Shown: positions 20,852 through 27,275, counted from the first letter of the stretch. The stretch: DNA of 64,000 nt from an uncultured Planctomycetaceae bacterium (GCA_937888715.1 CALARU010000312.1:1-64000), one strand, 5' to 3'. The notes: generated by a model not told the origin, from the letters alone. Made by a program: numbers and translations.

Positions 20852-22348
20852 ATGCGCAGTCCAGTTCAAGCAGTTTTGGCATTCACAATTCTGATGGGCT
20901 TTTTGCCTCACACTTTATTAGTTTGGATCCAACAAATTCCTGCTGTGCAGATTCTTATTGTTGGCCCTGTTGGCCCCATCGAAGGGGCATTAATTACCTT
21001 TGAACATAATTCTGATCAATTTCAAACGGATGTATTGGGCCGTTGCGATATCGCATACCCTTTAGCGGATACTAAGTTTGCGGTTGCTTGCGAAGGGTAC
21101 TTCATTGCGCATGATCGGCTTAAAAAGAAAGGGAATACGGTTCGACTTAAAAAAACACCGGCGGGCGATGCTGCCAATTACGAATGGGTTCATCCTTTGG
21201 AAGGAGAGCAAAATTGTGCAAGTTGCCATGGTCAGATTACACAGGAATGGGCACAAAGCGGGCATTCTTTTAGTAGCACAGGTCATCGATTTCTTGACAT
21301 GTATTCGGATATAAAAAAAGGTGGTGAGGTTATCAAAGGGTGGAGCCTTTCGCGAGATCTTCCGGAAGGTAAGACTGTTTGTGCGTCATGTCATGCCCCC
21401 GGAGTTGGTGCGGGGCAACCGGGCTTGGAAGATATTTCTGAAGTTAGCGGGATCAATAAGCTGGGGGTGCATTGTGATTTTTGTCATAAGGTTGCGACGG
21501 TTAAAAAAGAGGGTGTTGGTTTGTCGCATGGCAGAGATTTGTTGAGATTGGCTCGCCCAGAAAAAGGGCAGGTGTTTTTTGGCCCCATCAAAGATGCGAC
21601 TCGTGATGACAACTCTTTTAGTCCGGTGTACCAACAAAGCCTTTATTGCGCTTCCTGCCATGAAGGGACTTTATTTGGCATGCATGTCTATTCGACTTTT
21701 TCAGAGTGGCAGAAAAGCCCCGCTGCTGCAAAAGGGTTGCAATGTCAGTCATGCCATATGAAGCCTGATGGGCATTTCAAAAATATTGCTCCGGGAAAGG
21801 GTGGCATTGTTCGTGAAGCCAAGGGAGTGGCATCGCACCAGATAATGCCTGGTGGATTGCAGCAGATGTTGCAAAGTTCGATATACCATGAAGAGGAAGC
21901 TGTTCTGGGGGAAACCGAATGCGTGGTAAAAGTGCAGTTAAAAGCGGTGAATGTAGGGCACAAAGTTCCCACAGGATACATCGACCGGCATATGATATTG
22001 CAGGTGAGAGCGAAGTTTCAGGGGGAAGAGTTTAAACCAATCGATGGCCCGACCTTGCCAGCTTGGGTTGATAAAACCCTTGAGGGAAATGCTGGGGTGT
22101 TATTTGGCAGGCCCCTGTTAAGTGCAGATAAGCAGGGAATTCAGCCCTTTTGGCAGGGTGGTACAGGCTTTGTGGATTCCAGATTGGAGCCTGAGATGGC
22201 TAAAGTCTGGGTCTGGCGATTCCCGCACAAAATCGAATCAGTGAAGATTAGCTTGATTTATAGGCCATTCTGGAAAGAACAACAATTGATCAAACAGTGG
22301 GTTAATCAAGATATCGTTGTGTTTGAGAAATCTTTGGTCATTAAATAA
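20852..22348 (+). CDS. Exported multihaem (five CxxCH) cytochrome c with N-terminal beta-sandwich
   Basis: A 498-aa protein with a hydrophobic N-terminus suggesting export. Residues about 30-100 look like a carboxypeptidase-regulatory/Ig-like sandwich (VQILIVGPVGPIEGALITF). Five haem sites follow at about residues 120, 175, 207, 265 and 297: CASCH, CASCH, CDFCH, CASCH, CQSCH. This is similar to the cytochrome c554 family. The remaining 200 residues (HKVPTGYIDRHMILQVRAKF) resemble the beta-rich tail of such proteins. It should act in the periplasm as an electron carrier or reductase. No quinol oxidase or reductase partner is adjacent; it lies 20 bases after pyrF. Confidence 0.88.
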   Translation: MRSPVQAVLAFTILMGFLPHTLLVWIQQIPAVQILIVGPVGPIEGALITFEHNSDQFQTDVLGRCDIAYPLADTKFAVACEGYFIAHDRLKKKGNTVRLKKTPAGDAANYEWVHPLEGEQNCASCHGQITQEWAQSGHSFSSTGHRFLDMYSDIKKGGEVIKGWSLSRDLPEGKTVCASCHAPGVGAGQPGLEDISEVSGINKLGVHCDFCHKVATVKKEGVGLSHGRDLLRLARPEKGQVFFGPIKDATRDDNSFSPVYQQSLYCASCHEGTLFGMHVYSTFSEWQKSPAAAKGLQCQSCHMKPDGHFKNIAPGKGGIVREAKGVASHQIMPGGLQQMLQSSIYHEEEAVLGETECVVKVQLKAVNVGHKVPTGYIDRHMILQVRAKFQGEEFKPIDGPTLPAWVDKTLEGNAGVLFGRPLLSADKQGIQPFWQGGTGFVDSRLEPEMAKVWVWRFPHKIESVKISLIYRPFWKEQQLIKQWVNQDIVVFEKSLVIK

Positions 22349-22514: not shown

Positions 22515-24239
22515 ATGACTTATGACCCGACTAATCCGCTTATTGTCCAAGGTGACCGTTCTGTTTTATTAGAAGTTGATAACCCTAAGTATGCGCAGGC
22601 TCGTGAAGCACTTGCGCCCTTCGCAGAATTAGAAAAAAGCCCTGAGCATATCCATACCTATCGTCTTTCCAATCTATCTTTATGGAATGCTGCTGCTTCT
22701 GGTTTGACCGCTGCGACTATGGTCGAGGTGCTTAAAACCTTTTCCAAGTTTCCCCTGCCTGCCACGATAAGTTCAGATATTTTTGAAGTGGTTGGGCGTT
22801 ATGGGCGGGTTTGCATTAGGCGATCTGATCAGCTTGATCCGAAATCGAATAGCCACATGCTTTTGATGGTTTGCGAAGATGCTCATTTAATGGAAGAGCT
22901 TTCACGCCAGCCCAAGTTGAAAGAGTATCTGCATGAACGGGTAAACAAAAAAAGCTACTTGGTCGAACCATCATTCCGCGGCGTGTTGAAGCAGGCGTTG
23001 ATAATGATTGGCTACCCTGCGGAAGATCTTGCAGGTTATACCGAGGGAGCGAATTTAGACATTGGGTTAAGGAAAATATGCAAGTCCGGGGTGCCATTCA
23101 CTGTGCGTGATTACCAGAATGAGGCTTGCGAAGTATTTCATGCAGGTGGTGATGTTCGCGGTGGTAGTGGTGTAATCGTGCTGCCTTGTGGTGCGGGTAA
23201 AACCATTGTGGGCATTGTTGCGATGAGCATGTTGAAAAAGAATACGCTGATTTTATCGACGGGTATTACTGCGGTAAAGCAATGGCATCGAGAAATTCTT
23301 GATAAAACTGATATTCCGGAACATCTGATAGCTGAATACACAGGCGAATCGAAGGCGATAGCACCTGTAACAATAGCGACTTATCAAATTTTGACATACC
23401 GGCCCGAGAAGTCTGATGAGTTTCCACACTTTAAATTGTTTGATAGTCAGGATTGGGGCTTGATCGTTTACGATGAAGTGCATCTTTTGCCCGCTCCAGT
23501 ATTTCGGGTTACCGCCCAGATTCAAGCAAGGCGAAGGCTTGGACTTACTGCAACCTTGGTAAGAGAAGATGGCAGAGAAACCGATGTGTTCAGTTTGATT
23601 GGCCCCAAGAAGTATGATGTGCCATGGCGTGAACTTGAAACCAAGGGTTGGATTGCAGAAGCATCCTGCACCGAGGTCAGGGTTGGTTTGGTTGAATCCG
23701 ATCGCATGGATTATGCAGTTGCAGAATGGCGCAACAAATACAGGCTTGCAAGCGAAAATATTGCCAAGGAAGACATGGTTGCTGCCCTGTTAAATAACTA
23801 CGGGGAAAAAAGAATATTGATCATCGGTCAGTATTTAAAGCAATTGCGTCAGCTTAGAGATAGATTCGATATACCATTAATCACCGGGCAGACTCCAAAT
23901 TCTGAGCGTGAAGAGTTGTATGCAAAATTCAGAACAGGTGAAATAAAGAGTCTGATTCTTTCCAAGGTTGGGAACTTTGCACTCGATCTTCCCGATGCCA
24001 ATGTGCTGATTCAGGTATCTGGGACTTTTGGTTCTAGGCAGGAAGAAGCCCAGAGGTTGGGTAGAATTCTGAGGCCTAAACCAAGCGGTGAAATAGCTTA
24101 TTTTTACACATTGGTCACGCGGGACACTCGGGAACAGGATTTTGCGCACCATCGCCAAATGTTTCTTACCGAACAGGGCTATAGTTATAATGTAATGGAT
24201 GGTGATGCGTTGCTTAGTGAATTTGGTTGTTCAGTTTAA
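22515..24239 (+). CDS. XPB/Ssl2-like DEAD/DEAH-box DNA helicase
   Basis: A superfamily 2 helicase of 574 aa related to eukaryotic/archaeal XPB and actinobacterial XPB. The start at 22515 gives the N-terminus TYDPTNPLIVQGDRSVLLEV, typical of the bacterial family. After an N-terminal domain of about 190 aa come motif I (LPCGAGKTIVG), motif II (YDEVHLL), motif III (LGLTATLVREDGRETD), and the second RecA domain with the motif VI region QRLGRILRP. The RED motif of XPB is seen in VREDGR. It probably opens DNA during repair or transcription restart. It is followed by an 80-aa gene and a Helicase_C_3-type gene on the same strand. Confidence 0.94.
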   Translation: MTYDPTNPLIVQGDRSVLLEVDNPKYAQAREALAPFAELEKSPEHIHTYRLSNLSLWNAAASGLTAATMVEVLKTFSKFPLPATISSDIFEVVGRYGRVCIRRSDQLDPKSNSHMLLMVCEDAHLMEELSRQPKLKEYLHERVNKKSYLVEPSFRGVLKQALIMIGYPAEDLAGYTEGANLDIGLRKICKSGVPFTVRDYQNEACEVFHAGGDVRGGSGVIVLPCGAGKTIVGIVAMSMLKKNTLILSTGITAVKQWHREILDKTDIPEHLIAEYTGESKAIAPVTIATYQILTYRPEKSDEFPHFKLFDSQDWGLIVYDEVHLLPAPVFRVTAQIQARRRLGLTATLVREDGRETDVFSLIGPKKYDVPWRELETKGWIAEASCTEVRVGLVESDRMDYAVAEWRNKYRLASENIAKEDMVAALLNNYGEKRILIIGQYLKQLRQLRDRFDIPLITGQTPNSEREELYAKFRTGEIKSLILSKVGNFALDLPDANVLIQVSGTFGSRQEEAQRLGRILRPKPSGEIAYFYTLVTRDTREQDFAHHRQMFLTEQGYSYNVMDGDALLSEFGCSV

Positions 24240-24259
24240 GAAAGGTAATGCGAACATAA

Positions 24260-24502
24260 ATGCTGATTGTATCCAATAAAACAAGTATTGCACGGATTCC
24301 CGTAAAGTTGCATCGAAGGGTATGCCTAGTGCTTACTGAAGATGCATTGCTTGCGGAAGAGATCCTAGCTCGAAAGAAGCTCGCATCAGATATATCCGGA
24401 AGATTAACCAACGAGGTTCTTTTGGTAAGAACAGGCAGGCTTGAAAGCGTTGTTGCGGAACTTCAGCGCATGGGTCACACTCCTCAGGTATTACAGCGCT
24501 GA
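24260..24502 (+). CDS. Small protein matching the C-terminus of the downstream 734-aa helicase-associated protein
   Basis: An 80-aa protein between the XPB helicase (20 bases) and the 734-aa gene (2 bases). Residues 19-73 align without gaps to residues 668-722 of the downstream protein with 14 identities, counted by hand. The shared pattern is a hydrophobic strand plus Glu, an Ile-x2-Arg-Leu turn, a Leu-x-Val strand, Leu-Glu in a helix and a closing Gly-His. This suggests a free copy of the same small alpha/beta module. An in-frame three-codon ORF (ATG at 24248) sits just before the start, behind GAAAGG. No function can be assigned beyond a likely role with the helicase. Confidence 0.8.
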   Translation: MLIVSNKTSIARIPVKLHRRVCLVLTEDALLAEEILARKKLASDISGRLTNEVLLVRTGRLESVVAELQRMGHTPQVLQR

Positions 24503-24504
24503 AA

Positions 24505-26709
24505 ATGACAGAACCCATCCAGAAAATATGGCCTGAACTTGTACGTCTTATTCTTGGTCGCTATGACGAAAAATTGTTGCGCGAAGTCGTGCAGCGATTC
24601 CTTCGCCCTAGAAATCAATGGCCTGTTGAAGAACTTATCGACCGTTGCGTTGAAGCATTCGATAACACGGTTTTACTAAACCGCAGATTAAAAGAACTTG
24701 ATGAATCGCGCAAAACCCTTCTTGCTGCTTTGGCCCAATCCGGACAATGCAAATGGAAGCTTGGGCAGTTGATTGAGATTAGCATGTGCTTGGGGCAGGA
24801 AGATGGTTTGTCTGCTGTATTTGATTTGTTGAACCAAGGATTTTTATTGCCTGATGTTGTCAACCTTGAACAAAAGGATCGTCTTCCAAAACCTTGCAAA
24901 AGCCCATACATCAAAAGTTTTGAGCAGTGGATTGGGTTTCCCGGCCCTGAAGGATTGGCGATTTTCCTGCCTCCCCCCATCAGCCAAAGGTCGATAGCTT
25001 TCCCTTTATCATTGCCCCAAAAATACGAACCACCTGAAGGTGCGGAACTCCTTGAACCCGACCCCATTGCTCCTGTCCTTCAAGCTGATGGTATGGAGTT
25101 TCCTCTTCGCATGTCGGTTCTATTGCAGATGGTTCATAAAGATCCCCTGCGTAAAAATCAGCAGGGTGGATTTTTCAAAAGAGATCTCGAAAATCTTCGT
25201 GCCAATTCCATGCTTTCTTCTGATCCTTCCGACCGCTTAATCGAAGTTCCTGATCTCGGTATTCTTTTAACTGAAATAGGTTTGAAACTAGGCATTCTTA
25301 TCCCCAAAGAAAGTGAATTGCACCCTGGAACTTTTCCCGCTTCTTGGGATGAAGGCTTGCTTGCAGTGCTGACTGAAATTTGGGCTGCGCTTCCCGCAAT
25401 TGATTCCTGGAACCCTTGCACTGGCCTAAATGATAATCCTGAAGATCGAAGCAACCCCTACAATTCGGCTTGCCTTGTTGCGGTTCTTGCGCTTGGCAAT
25501 CTTCCCCCTAATCAGTGGGTGGATCCAGAGTTTCTTGAATCCTGGGTGATTGATCATCATCCTTATTGGAAAGACCGGGAATCGATTAGGCCTTCCCGAT
25601 TAAAAGGCTGGTTGGTTAAATTCCTCCTTGGCATCGCATTTCAAATCCGGATGATCCAGGCAACCAAGTTGCTGGGCGGAAAATATTTGGTCAGGCTCAG
25701 TCCCGTGGGGCGATCCATTCTTGGTTTGCAAAAAGAAAATGATCTGCAAGATGTGATTGCAAAAACTTTGCTGGTGCAGCCCAATCTTGAAATTCTTGCT
25801 TTTCGCCAAGGATTGAATCCGGCACTTGCAAGAGATCTTACCAACCTCGCAACTTTGAAAAGCATTGGCCCCGCTTGCCAGTTGTTGTTGGAACCCGAAT
25901 CGGTCTATTTCGCTTTGGAAACAGGCTTACGCTACGAAGATATTTGCGGATTACTGGAAAGGCACGGCACTCGTGCAACCCCACAGGCGGTATTGGATGC
26001 CATTAAAACTTGGTCGAATAAACATGAACGAATAACGATTTATGCATCTGCAACGCTATTGGAATTTCCAACCGCACAAGATCTTGAGAATGCGCTTTCG
26101 CGTGGGTTGCCTGCATTAAAAATTTCGGATCGCTTTGCGGTAACTACAAGTGAAGAAGGCATTGATTTTAGCCAGTATAGGTTGACTGCGACCAGAGATT
26201 ATGGGTTGATGCCCGAAAAATGTGTGCAAGTTGAGAGCGATGGCGTGACACTTGTTGTTGATATAAGCAGGTCTGATCTTTTGCTTGAAACCGAGTTGCC
26301 CAGATTTGCAGATTTTGTTGAAGATGCTTCATCGCAGCAAAGAAGAGTTTATAAGCTTAGCCCCGAGACGCTGAAAAAGGCCGACCAGATTGGCTACACC
26401 CCAACAGCCTTGGACGATTGGTTTCAACAAAGGTTGGGGCATTCGCTGACTCCCGCAATTCAATTGATTCTTGGTGCAAAATCGGATGCAGTTCCTCCAA
26501 GTTTTGAAACCATGCTGGTCGTGCATTTGGAAAATGAACTGATCACGGATGGAATTATGCAATGGCCTGACACATCGCAGTGGATTCATTCTAGGCTGGG
26601 GCCTTGTGCTCTAACTGTTACTAGCGAATCATTAGAGAAATTAAGAAAAGCACTGTTGGAAGCTGGCCATAAACTTGTTGAATCTAGCGCGGTACAGGCA
26701 GGATGTTAA
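24505..26709 (+). CDS. Helicase_C_3 (XPB/Ssl2 helicase-associated domain) protein
   Basis: A 734-aa protein without helicase motifs of its own. Its second half (from about LAFRQGLNPALARDL through YASATLLEFPT and ALKISDRFAVTT) matches the family known as XPB/Ssl2-like, helicase-conjugated or Helicase_C_3. In actinobacteria such a gene also lies beside XPB (Rv0861c/Rv0862c in M. tuberculosis), which supports a shared function. The first 400 residues are mostly helical with winged-helix-like segments. The extreme C-terminus (668-722) is the module repeated as the 80-aa upstream protein. The gene starts 2 bases after that small gene. It probably binds DNA or regulates the helicase. Confidence 0.85.
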   Translation: MTEPIQKIWPELVRLILGRYDEKLLREVVQRFLRPRNQWPVEELIDRCVEAFDNTVLLNRRLKELDESRKTLLAALAQSGQCKWKLGQLIEISMCLGQEDGLSAVFDLLNQGFLLPDVVNLEQKDRLPKPCKSPYIKSFEQWIGFPGPEGLAIFLPPPISQRSIAFPLSLPQKYEPPEGAELLEPDPIAPVLQADGMEFPLRMSVLLQMVHKDPLRKNQQGGFFKRDLENLRANSMLSSDPSDRLIEVPDLGILLTEIGLKLGILIPKESELHPGTFPASWDEGLLAVLTEIWAALPAIDSWNPCTGLNDNPEDRSNPYNSACLVAVLALGNLPPNQWVDPEFLESWVIDHHPYWKDRESIRPSRLKGWLVKFLLGIAFQIRMIQATKLLGGKYLVRLSPVGRSILGLQKENDLQDVIAKTLLVQPNLEILAFRQGLNPALARDLTNLATLKSIGPACQLLLEPESVYFALETGLRYEDICGLLERHGTRATPQAVLDAIKTWSNKHERITIYASATLLEFPTAQDLENALSRGLPALKISDRFAVTTSEEGIDFSQYRLTATRDYGLMPEKCVQVESDGVTLVVDISRSDLLLETELPRFADFVEDASSQQRRVYKLSPETLKKADQIGYTPTALDDWFQQRLGHSLTPAIQLILGAKSDAVPPSFETMLVVHLENELITDGIMQWPDTSQWIHSRLGPCALTVTSESLEKLRKALLEAGHKLVESSAVQAGC

Positions 26710-26714
26710 ATTAG

Positions 26715-27275
26715 CTATTTCTTTTGCTCAAGTGTTTTTGAAATGTCGGTAAGTGTTTCATTGATCATAAAAAAGACTATGATCAATTCGCAGTAAATGC
26801 GAATAACCAAGGGGCCCAATAACATAGTTAGAAACCCGATTAGTATTCCTTGAGAATTAATGTTAACAAGCGAAATAATAAATAGCCCTAATCCAATCAC
26901 CACACTTATAATAGTTCCAATCCAAAAAAAGATGCTGACCAATTTTGGGGTGATCATCCTCTTAAAGCAAAGGTAATCCCAAACATTGTTCGGAATCATT
27001 TCAAAGGGAATTTTCAAAGCGGGGCTTGCTGCAGTTGATTCAGTTCGATTAACTGGCATTGGAGTTTGAGATAAAGCTTCAGGCGGTTTTTCAGCGGTAG
27101 CAAGAAATGCAAAAGAAGGAACTTCTCTCCAGCAAGTCCAAGCGGCCATCGTAGGTGTCCAAACTAAAGCATCTTTTGAAACCTTGCCTTCTTTTATCAT
27201 GGATTGAACCGTCAAAAAGGGAAAGGGGCCCTGACCTTTTCCTTGAATTACCACATGCCATTGTTGCTCACTCAT
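26715..27275 (-). CDS. GYF-2 domain protein with DUF4282 membrane segment
   Basis: A 186-aa protein. Residues 1-60 form a GYF_2/DUF4339 domain (WHVVIQGKGQGPF, then DALVWTPTMAAWTCW). A variable linker follows, and residues about 108-178 form a DUF4282 region with two membrane helices (FFWIGTIISVVIGLGLFII and a second hydrophobic stretch ending RIYCELIIVFFMIN). Such proteins are common in planctomycetes, and the GYF domain probably binds proline-rich peptides at the cytosolic face. AAAAGGA lies 8 bases before the ATG. It converges with the 734-aa helicase-associated gene, 5 bases apart. Confidence 0.85.
   Translation of the reverse strand: MSEQQWHVVIQGKGQGPFPFLTVQSMIKEGKVSKDALVWTPTMAAWTCWREVPSFAFLATAEKPPEALSQTPMPVNRTESTAASPALKIPFEMIPNNVWDYLCFKRMITPKLVSIFFWIGTIISVVIGLGLFIISLVNINSQGILIGFLTMLLGPLVIRIYCELIIVFFMINETLTDISKTLEQKK

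Follow-up and report, generated by a model that had tools for sequence, protein, structure and literature searches.

In eukaryotic TFIIH, the helicase XPB is partnered by p52 and p8 (Ssl2, Tfb2 and Tfb5 in yeast), and mutations in p8 (also TTDA) cause trichothiodystrophy. Within the complex, p8 and the C-terminal domain (CTD) of p52 have one fold in common and bind to each other by their strands, p8 also contacts the second helicase domain and the ThM motif of XPB, and p52/p8 both activate XPB and limit its speed (PMC7708078). Furthermore, the N-terminal domain (NTD) of XPB and the clutch of p52 form a pseudo-symmetric dimer (PMC6422496). Archaeal XPB works with a dedicated partner, the nuclease Bax1 (PMC7672443, PMC13024598). 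Both p52 and p8 have been reported to be lacking in bacteria, and a 2012 paper stated that bacterial p52 homologues had not been found. Open-access papers that link XPB to Rv0862c, or Asgard to TFIIH and p52, and papers on "bacterial TFIIH" gave nothing relevant beyond that statement, and no description of a bacterial p52 or p8 was found; as the search covered open-access papers, priority is uncertain. In the literature searched, the Helicase_C_3 (PF13625) protein that stands beside XPB in some bacteria is not described as p52.

We analysed a 64,000-nt stretch of DNA, hereafter the window, from an uncultured Planctomycetaceae bacterium (GCA_937888715.1 CALARU010000312.1:1-64000). It carries an XPB-type helicase gene followed by genes for a small protein (S) and a large protein (L), all on the + strand, with gaps of 20 bases between XPB and S and 2 bases between S and L. 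The open reading frames agree exactly with the three-gene packing, 80-aa S and 734-aa L of the original prediction. This cassette is very probably the bacterial counterpart of the XPB-p52-p8 subcomplex, that is, a minimal TFIIH-like XPB motor subcomplex. Its features are as follows.

22515..24239, + strand: XPB-type SF2 helicase, 574 aa (NF045503, Pfam), with an NTD/clutch-like domain (PF13625, aa 9-143), a p8-like module (aa 117-167) and two RecA domains
22863..23015, + strand: p8-like module in XPB, aa 117-167 (hhalign with S profiles)
24260..24502, + strand: S, free p8/Tfb5-like protein, 80 aa (AF2, Foldseek, hmmsearch of PDB sequences)
24505..26709, + strand: L, p52/Tfb2-like protein, 734 aa (hmmsearch of PDB, AF2, Foldseek)
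25735..26151, + strand: first clutch domain of L (PF13625, aa 422-529) with a degenerate p8-like stretch (aa ~504-547), together aa ~411-549 (Pfam, profile matches)
26209..26505, + strand: second clutch-like domain of L, aa ~569-667 (colinear profile alignment with XPB)
26506..26679, + strand: fused p8-like module of L, aa 668-725, homologous to S (hhalign; secondary-structure order as in S)

The helicase scored 856 bits against NF045503 (repair_heli_XPB), for which the cut-off is 610, and so passes the curated XPB equivalog cut-off. Pfam places PF13625 in both XPB (9-143) and L (422-529). Directly upstream of the cassette (20852-22348) lies a gene for a protein with several CxxCH motifs, probably a multihaem cytochrome. 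Downstream, a gene for a 186-aa protein on the - strand (26715-27275) converges on L with a 5-base gap; by eye, its product has an N-terminus apparently of GYF type, together with predicted membrane segments.

The original prediction suggested that one alpha/beta module exists both free, as S, and fused, at the end of L, on the strength of an ungapped match of S 19-73 to L 668-722 with 14 identities. We reproduced this count. Taken alone, the pairwise alignment is within chance, and we rejected it as evidence: when S was shuffled 2000 times, its Smith-Waterman score of 36 was reached in 19% of cases against full-length L and in 3% against the last 134 residues of L, and the best ungapped score was reached in 9% of 300 shuffles. 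When family profiles were compared with hhalign, however, S 19-74 aligned with L 668-723 in the same register (E=4e-7, probability 92.8%). None of 200 column shuffles reached the observed score of 49.6 (mean, 13.9; maximum, 23.9), and a reversed profile scored 11.9. Deeper alignments gave E=1.3e-7, of the order of 1e-7, and a profile built from non-planctomycete S proteins matched the end of L at E=2.1e-9. In the AlphaFold2 (AF2) models, the secondary-structure elements of S (strand-helix-helix-strand-strand-helix; pLDDT 89) recur in identical order in the fused module of L. Thus, the observation holds because the family-profile alignment is far above chance, and not because of the pairwise match. 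S as a recent copy of the end of L was rejected by a model of S from other phyla, which gave median scores of 52.8 bits for planctomycete S, 16.8 bits for the ends of L and 17.8 bits for the XPB module. By these profile scores, S is an old, separate family.

We then compared S with proteins of known structure. A Foldseek search with the model of S returned Tfb5/p8 at ranks 1 to 5 (32% identity to 3dom_B), at an E value for S alone that was modest (0.02). By model and Foldseek, S has the makeup of p8, a single module of about 65-80 aa with the Tfb5 fold. A profile of planctomycete S sequences found TFB5 in the PDB at E=0.02-0.04, and in an hmmsearch with a pan-bacterial profile TFB5 reached E=1.3e-4, the next best match standing at 0.069. 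The S of the window matched no Pfam family. For one S from another phylum, Tfb5 (PF06331) was the best of 24,736 Pfam models (E=0.001), with 19.4 bits against a gathering score of 23.5. The clade of this relative keeps an ELD[DE]THW motif, matching the LDDTH of yeast Tfb5. Matches of S to the NCBIfam models HutZ, DfrA8 and FslC (best E 0.029), and PDB matches to uS15 and a designed TIM barrel, were rejected as chance or low information. Pfam gathering scores are curation thresholds and not biological features; S, being below that of PF06331, is therefore best described as a p8 homologue outside the curated Pfam family, an assignment well supported by profiles and predicted fold.

L, called a Helicase_C_3-type protein in the original prediction, gave a parallel result. 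Searched with hmmsearch against all PDB sequences, the L profile had 11 natural matches, namely, p52/Tfb2 (6) and XPB (5); human p52 was the best (E=7.6e-5), followed by yeast Tfb2 (about 0.02) and then the XPB N-terminal domain. A 12th match, to a designed protein, was weak. With the AF2 model of L (pLDDT 90.8), Foldseek ranks 1-21 were all p52/Tfb2 (best E 1.3e-8) and ranks 22-38 were XPB. Bax1 was not among the 50 matches listed. The alignments to p52 span up to about 600 columns, with low rigid TM-scores (about 0.3) that perhaps reflect a different placement of domains in a multidomain protein. The N-terminal region of L, to about aa 410, was matched to p52 by fold, and the clutch and C-terminal module were matched by profile; by model and profiles, L thus agrees with p52 in its fold and in the succession of N-terminal region, clutch and CTD. 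The L of the window had no match to Tfb2 (PF03849) in the Pfam search, its gathering score not being reached. Another bacterial L matched this family at E=7e-4 (19.0 bits; gathering score, 34.5) and a thorarchaeal L at E=0.018, below the cut-off. L is likewise sub-threshold and therefore a p52 homologue outside the curated Pfam family, which is well supported by the same two kinds of evidence.

The p8-like module occurs at further places in the cassette. S profiles matched XPB 117-167 at E=1.1e-5 (hhalign, deeper alignments), and the profile of non-planctomycete S proteins matched XPB ~117-170 at E=1.4e-7. We assigned this segment as the DRD by position alone, since it sits, as in the human layout, after the NTD and before the RecA domain. 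By profile alignment, XPB 5-171 is colinear with L 569-726 (E=1.9e-11), and the XPB NTD also matches L 459-512 (E=6e-8). S has a weak match to L 504-545 (E=0.0018, hhalign). The module is therefore present in XPB, twice in L (weakly at 504-545) and free as S. XPB and p52 probably share one ancestral unit of clutch plus p8-like module through copying from one to the other, and S would be its free p8-like half.

It could be argued that these similarities reflect one common small alpha/beta fold, with no system shared with TFIIH; S and L would then be a pair of accessory proteins of a bacterial helicase, unrelated to p8 and p52. The module is short, the Foldseek E value for S is no better than 0.02, and the Pfam cut-offs are not reached. 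However, two independent members of the cassette, when searched blindly, each returned exactly the TFIIH partners of the third. Moreover, an S profile run over 25 whole genomes, mostly without free S, returned almost only ORFs of XPB and L size: apart from the S of one genome (G357), the strong matches were ORFs sized as XPB (568-583 aa) and L (565-609 aa), with a few further weak ones. We consider the common-fold explanation very unlikely and retain the homology of each part to its TFIIH counterpart, which profile and fold support well.

Among 59 related genomes, including that of the window, XPB, S and L occurred together in 47 and were all absent in 8. Of the exceptions, G011 and G024 had only XPB and G043 had only S and L. 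A strong match to S (E < 1e-9) without internal stops was present in 48 genomes. The original prediction would have been refuted by a profile comparison without any relation between the two segments, but the comparison described above was positive. It would also have been refuted by loss of the small gene from relatives that keep the helicase pair. The gene was not missing there: G032 was the sole genome in which L matched and S did not, and in it L is cut by the contig end and XPB was not found. The XPB-S-L order, which the prediction had singled out for checking, was kept in other planctomycete families. XPB and S overlap by 4 bases at 16 of 46 junctions; of 50 S-L junctions, 36 lie within -20 to 30 bases and 19 are exactly -4, a stop-start overlap. 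In the nearer relatives, median identity was 64% for S and 37% for L. In five genomes (G012, G031, G039, G042 and G043), S and L are on different contigs or far apart, and in G031, G039, G042 and G043 S is separate from XPB as well. At loci L062, L073, L086 and L088, S is well conserved even though it stands apart from both L and XPB.

These data bear on what S might do at the helicase, for which the original prediction had offered a subunit contact or a competitor. As a competitor or decoy, S would be a free copy of the C-terminal module of L that drives L off XPB and shuts the helicase down. Its homology to the end of L and its location away from L and XPB in four genomes are in keeping with such a role. 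Nevertheless, the tight and often overlapping S-L junctions in many loci and the greater conservation of S than of L make a competitor less likely than a dimer partner. In addition, S is rarely missing where L is kept, and the same pair forms a stable heterodimer in TFIIH (PMC7708078). We judge the competitor to be unlikely, and subunit contact, by analogy with TFIIH, is the best reading of the two.

The distribution among relatives also speaks to a further idea, that of a helicase-based system for anti-phage defence or restriction. XPB does match PbeA helicase models of PADLOC in its core helicase region. S and L, on the other hand, match no PADLOC model, XPB passes the repair XPB equivalog cut-off, and the cassette is stably kept through the family and the order, unlike patchy defence islands. 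After the PADLOC check, we dropped this explanation as extremely unlikely.

Returning to the TFIIH-like subcomplex, p8 and the p52 C-terminal domain share a fold and dimerise in TFIIH, and the arrangement of one module both free and fused is therefore the p8/p52 design. By analogy with TFIIH, the clutch of L would pair with the N-terminal domain of XPB, and S would pair with the p8-like C-terminal module of L in a proposed dimer. L and S might then cradle the second RecA domain and stabilise XPB, with S capping the p8-like module of L. The two could both switch on and limit ATP-driven DNA translocation by XPB, as p52/p8 do. L contains a second unit of clutch plus module, and there is therefore more than one candidate module for S. 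Complex formation and control of the motor are what we infer from TFIIH. The likely biological use is DNA opening in repair or transcription-linked processes, repair being the natural guess. A p52-p8 pair beside XPB would supply the missing partners of bacterial XPB, and whether bacterial XPB acts in a complex becomes testable.

By profile and fold, the cassette holds the same three proteins as XPB-p52-p8 (Ssl2-Tfb2-Tfb5), including the clutch homology of XPB and p52 and the single fold common to p8 and the p52 C terminus. Unlike TFIIH, it encodes S and L in one gene cluster with XPB, its sequences have diverged below the Pfam cut-offs, and its L has two clutch-plus-module units, a second not being described for eukaryotic p52. 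Matches to p44 (PF04056) and p34 (PF03850) were absent from the genome of the window at E<=1, and we therefore do not file the cassette as TFIIH. It shares with archaeal XPB-Bax1 an XPB with a dedicated partner and differs in that Bax1 is a nuclease.

Beyond planctomycetes, a search with 65 aa of XPB as bait yielded 80 loci spread over many phyla. Taxa are named here as in the public records, which are in part metagenome bins. L-like genes adjoined XPB or lay close to it in Bacillota, Chloroflexota, Thorarchaeota, Bathyarchaeia, Desulfobacteraceae, Cyanobacteria, Synergistaceae and Actinomycetota. The PF13625 protein adjoining XPB in actinobacteria and other bacteria is of the same class as L; many such loci have no free S, and the module itself often stands at the end of their L. 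A free S directly before L was found in Armatimonadota, Hydrogenedentota, Actinomycetota, Chloroflexota, Myxococcota and the phylum of locus L188, and S-L adjacency extends to at least seven phyla. Of 44 genomes in the L188 phylum, 15 have an S, in loci where an L-like gene immediately follows; most of these S proteins have an ELD[DE]THW-type motif, like the LDDTH of yeast Tfb5. On a Troglogloeales contig (L194), S follows XPB and the contig then ends. Fibrobacter, Brevibacillus and others have XPB without L or S nearby. In five Chloroflexota loci (L162, L168, L181, L187 and L206), two p52-like paralogues in tandem come after XPB, and an S-like module forms the end of the first (E=2e-12 in L162). 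From its sequence, this first paralogue looks as if S, the free p8, had been naturally fused to a copy of p52.

Archaeal p52-like proteins were encoded near or beside XPB in Thorarchaeota (L164, L180 and L197) and Bathyarchaeia (L169 and L176); free p8 was not detectable at these five loci, and the archaeal literature surveyed speaks of XPB-Bax1 only. We lean toward an XPB-p52-p8 motor older than the eukaryotes. It would be a self-contained DNA-opening machine in many bacteria, with its XPB-p52 part present in archaea too, Thorarchaeota among them, and eukaryotic TFIIH would have been assembled around this motor. The cassette bears on the origin of TFIIH and offers a small system for studying control of the motor by p52/p8. 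One contig labelled Bacteroidales (L155) has an XPB segment 88% identical to that of the window, as close as Gemmata, and is probably a mis-assigned bin. XPB matches were split near residue 292-298 at L150, L151 and L206 and in the XPB of G037 and G038, which suggests that roughly 30-45 additional residues lie between helicase motifs.
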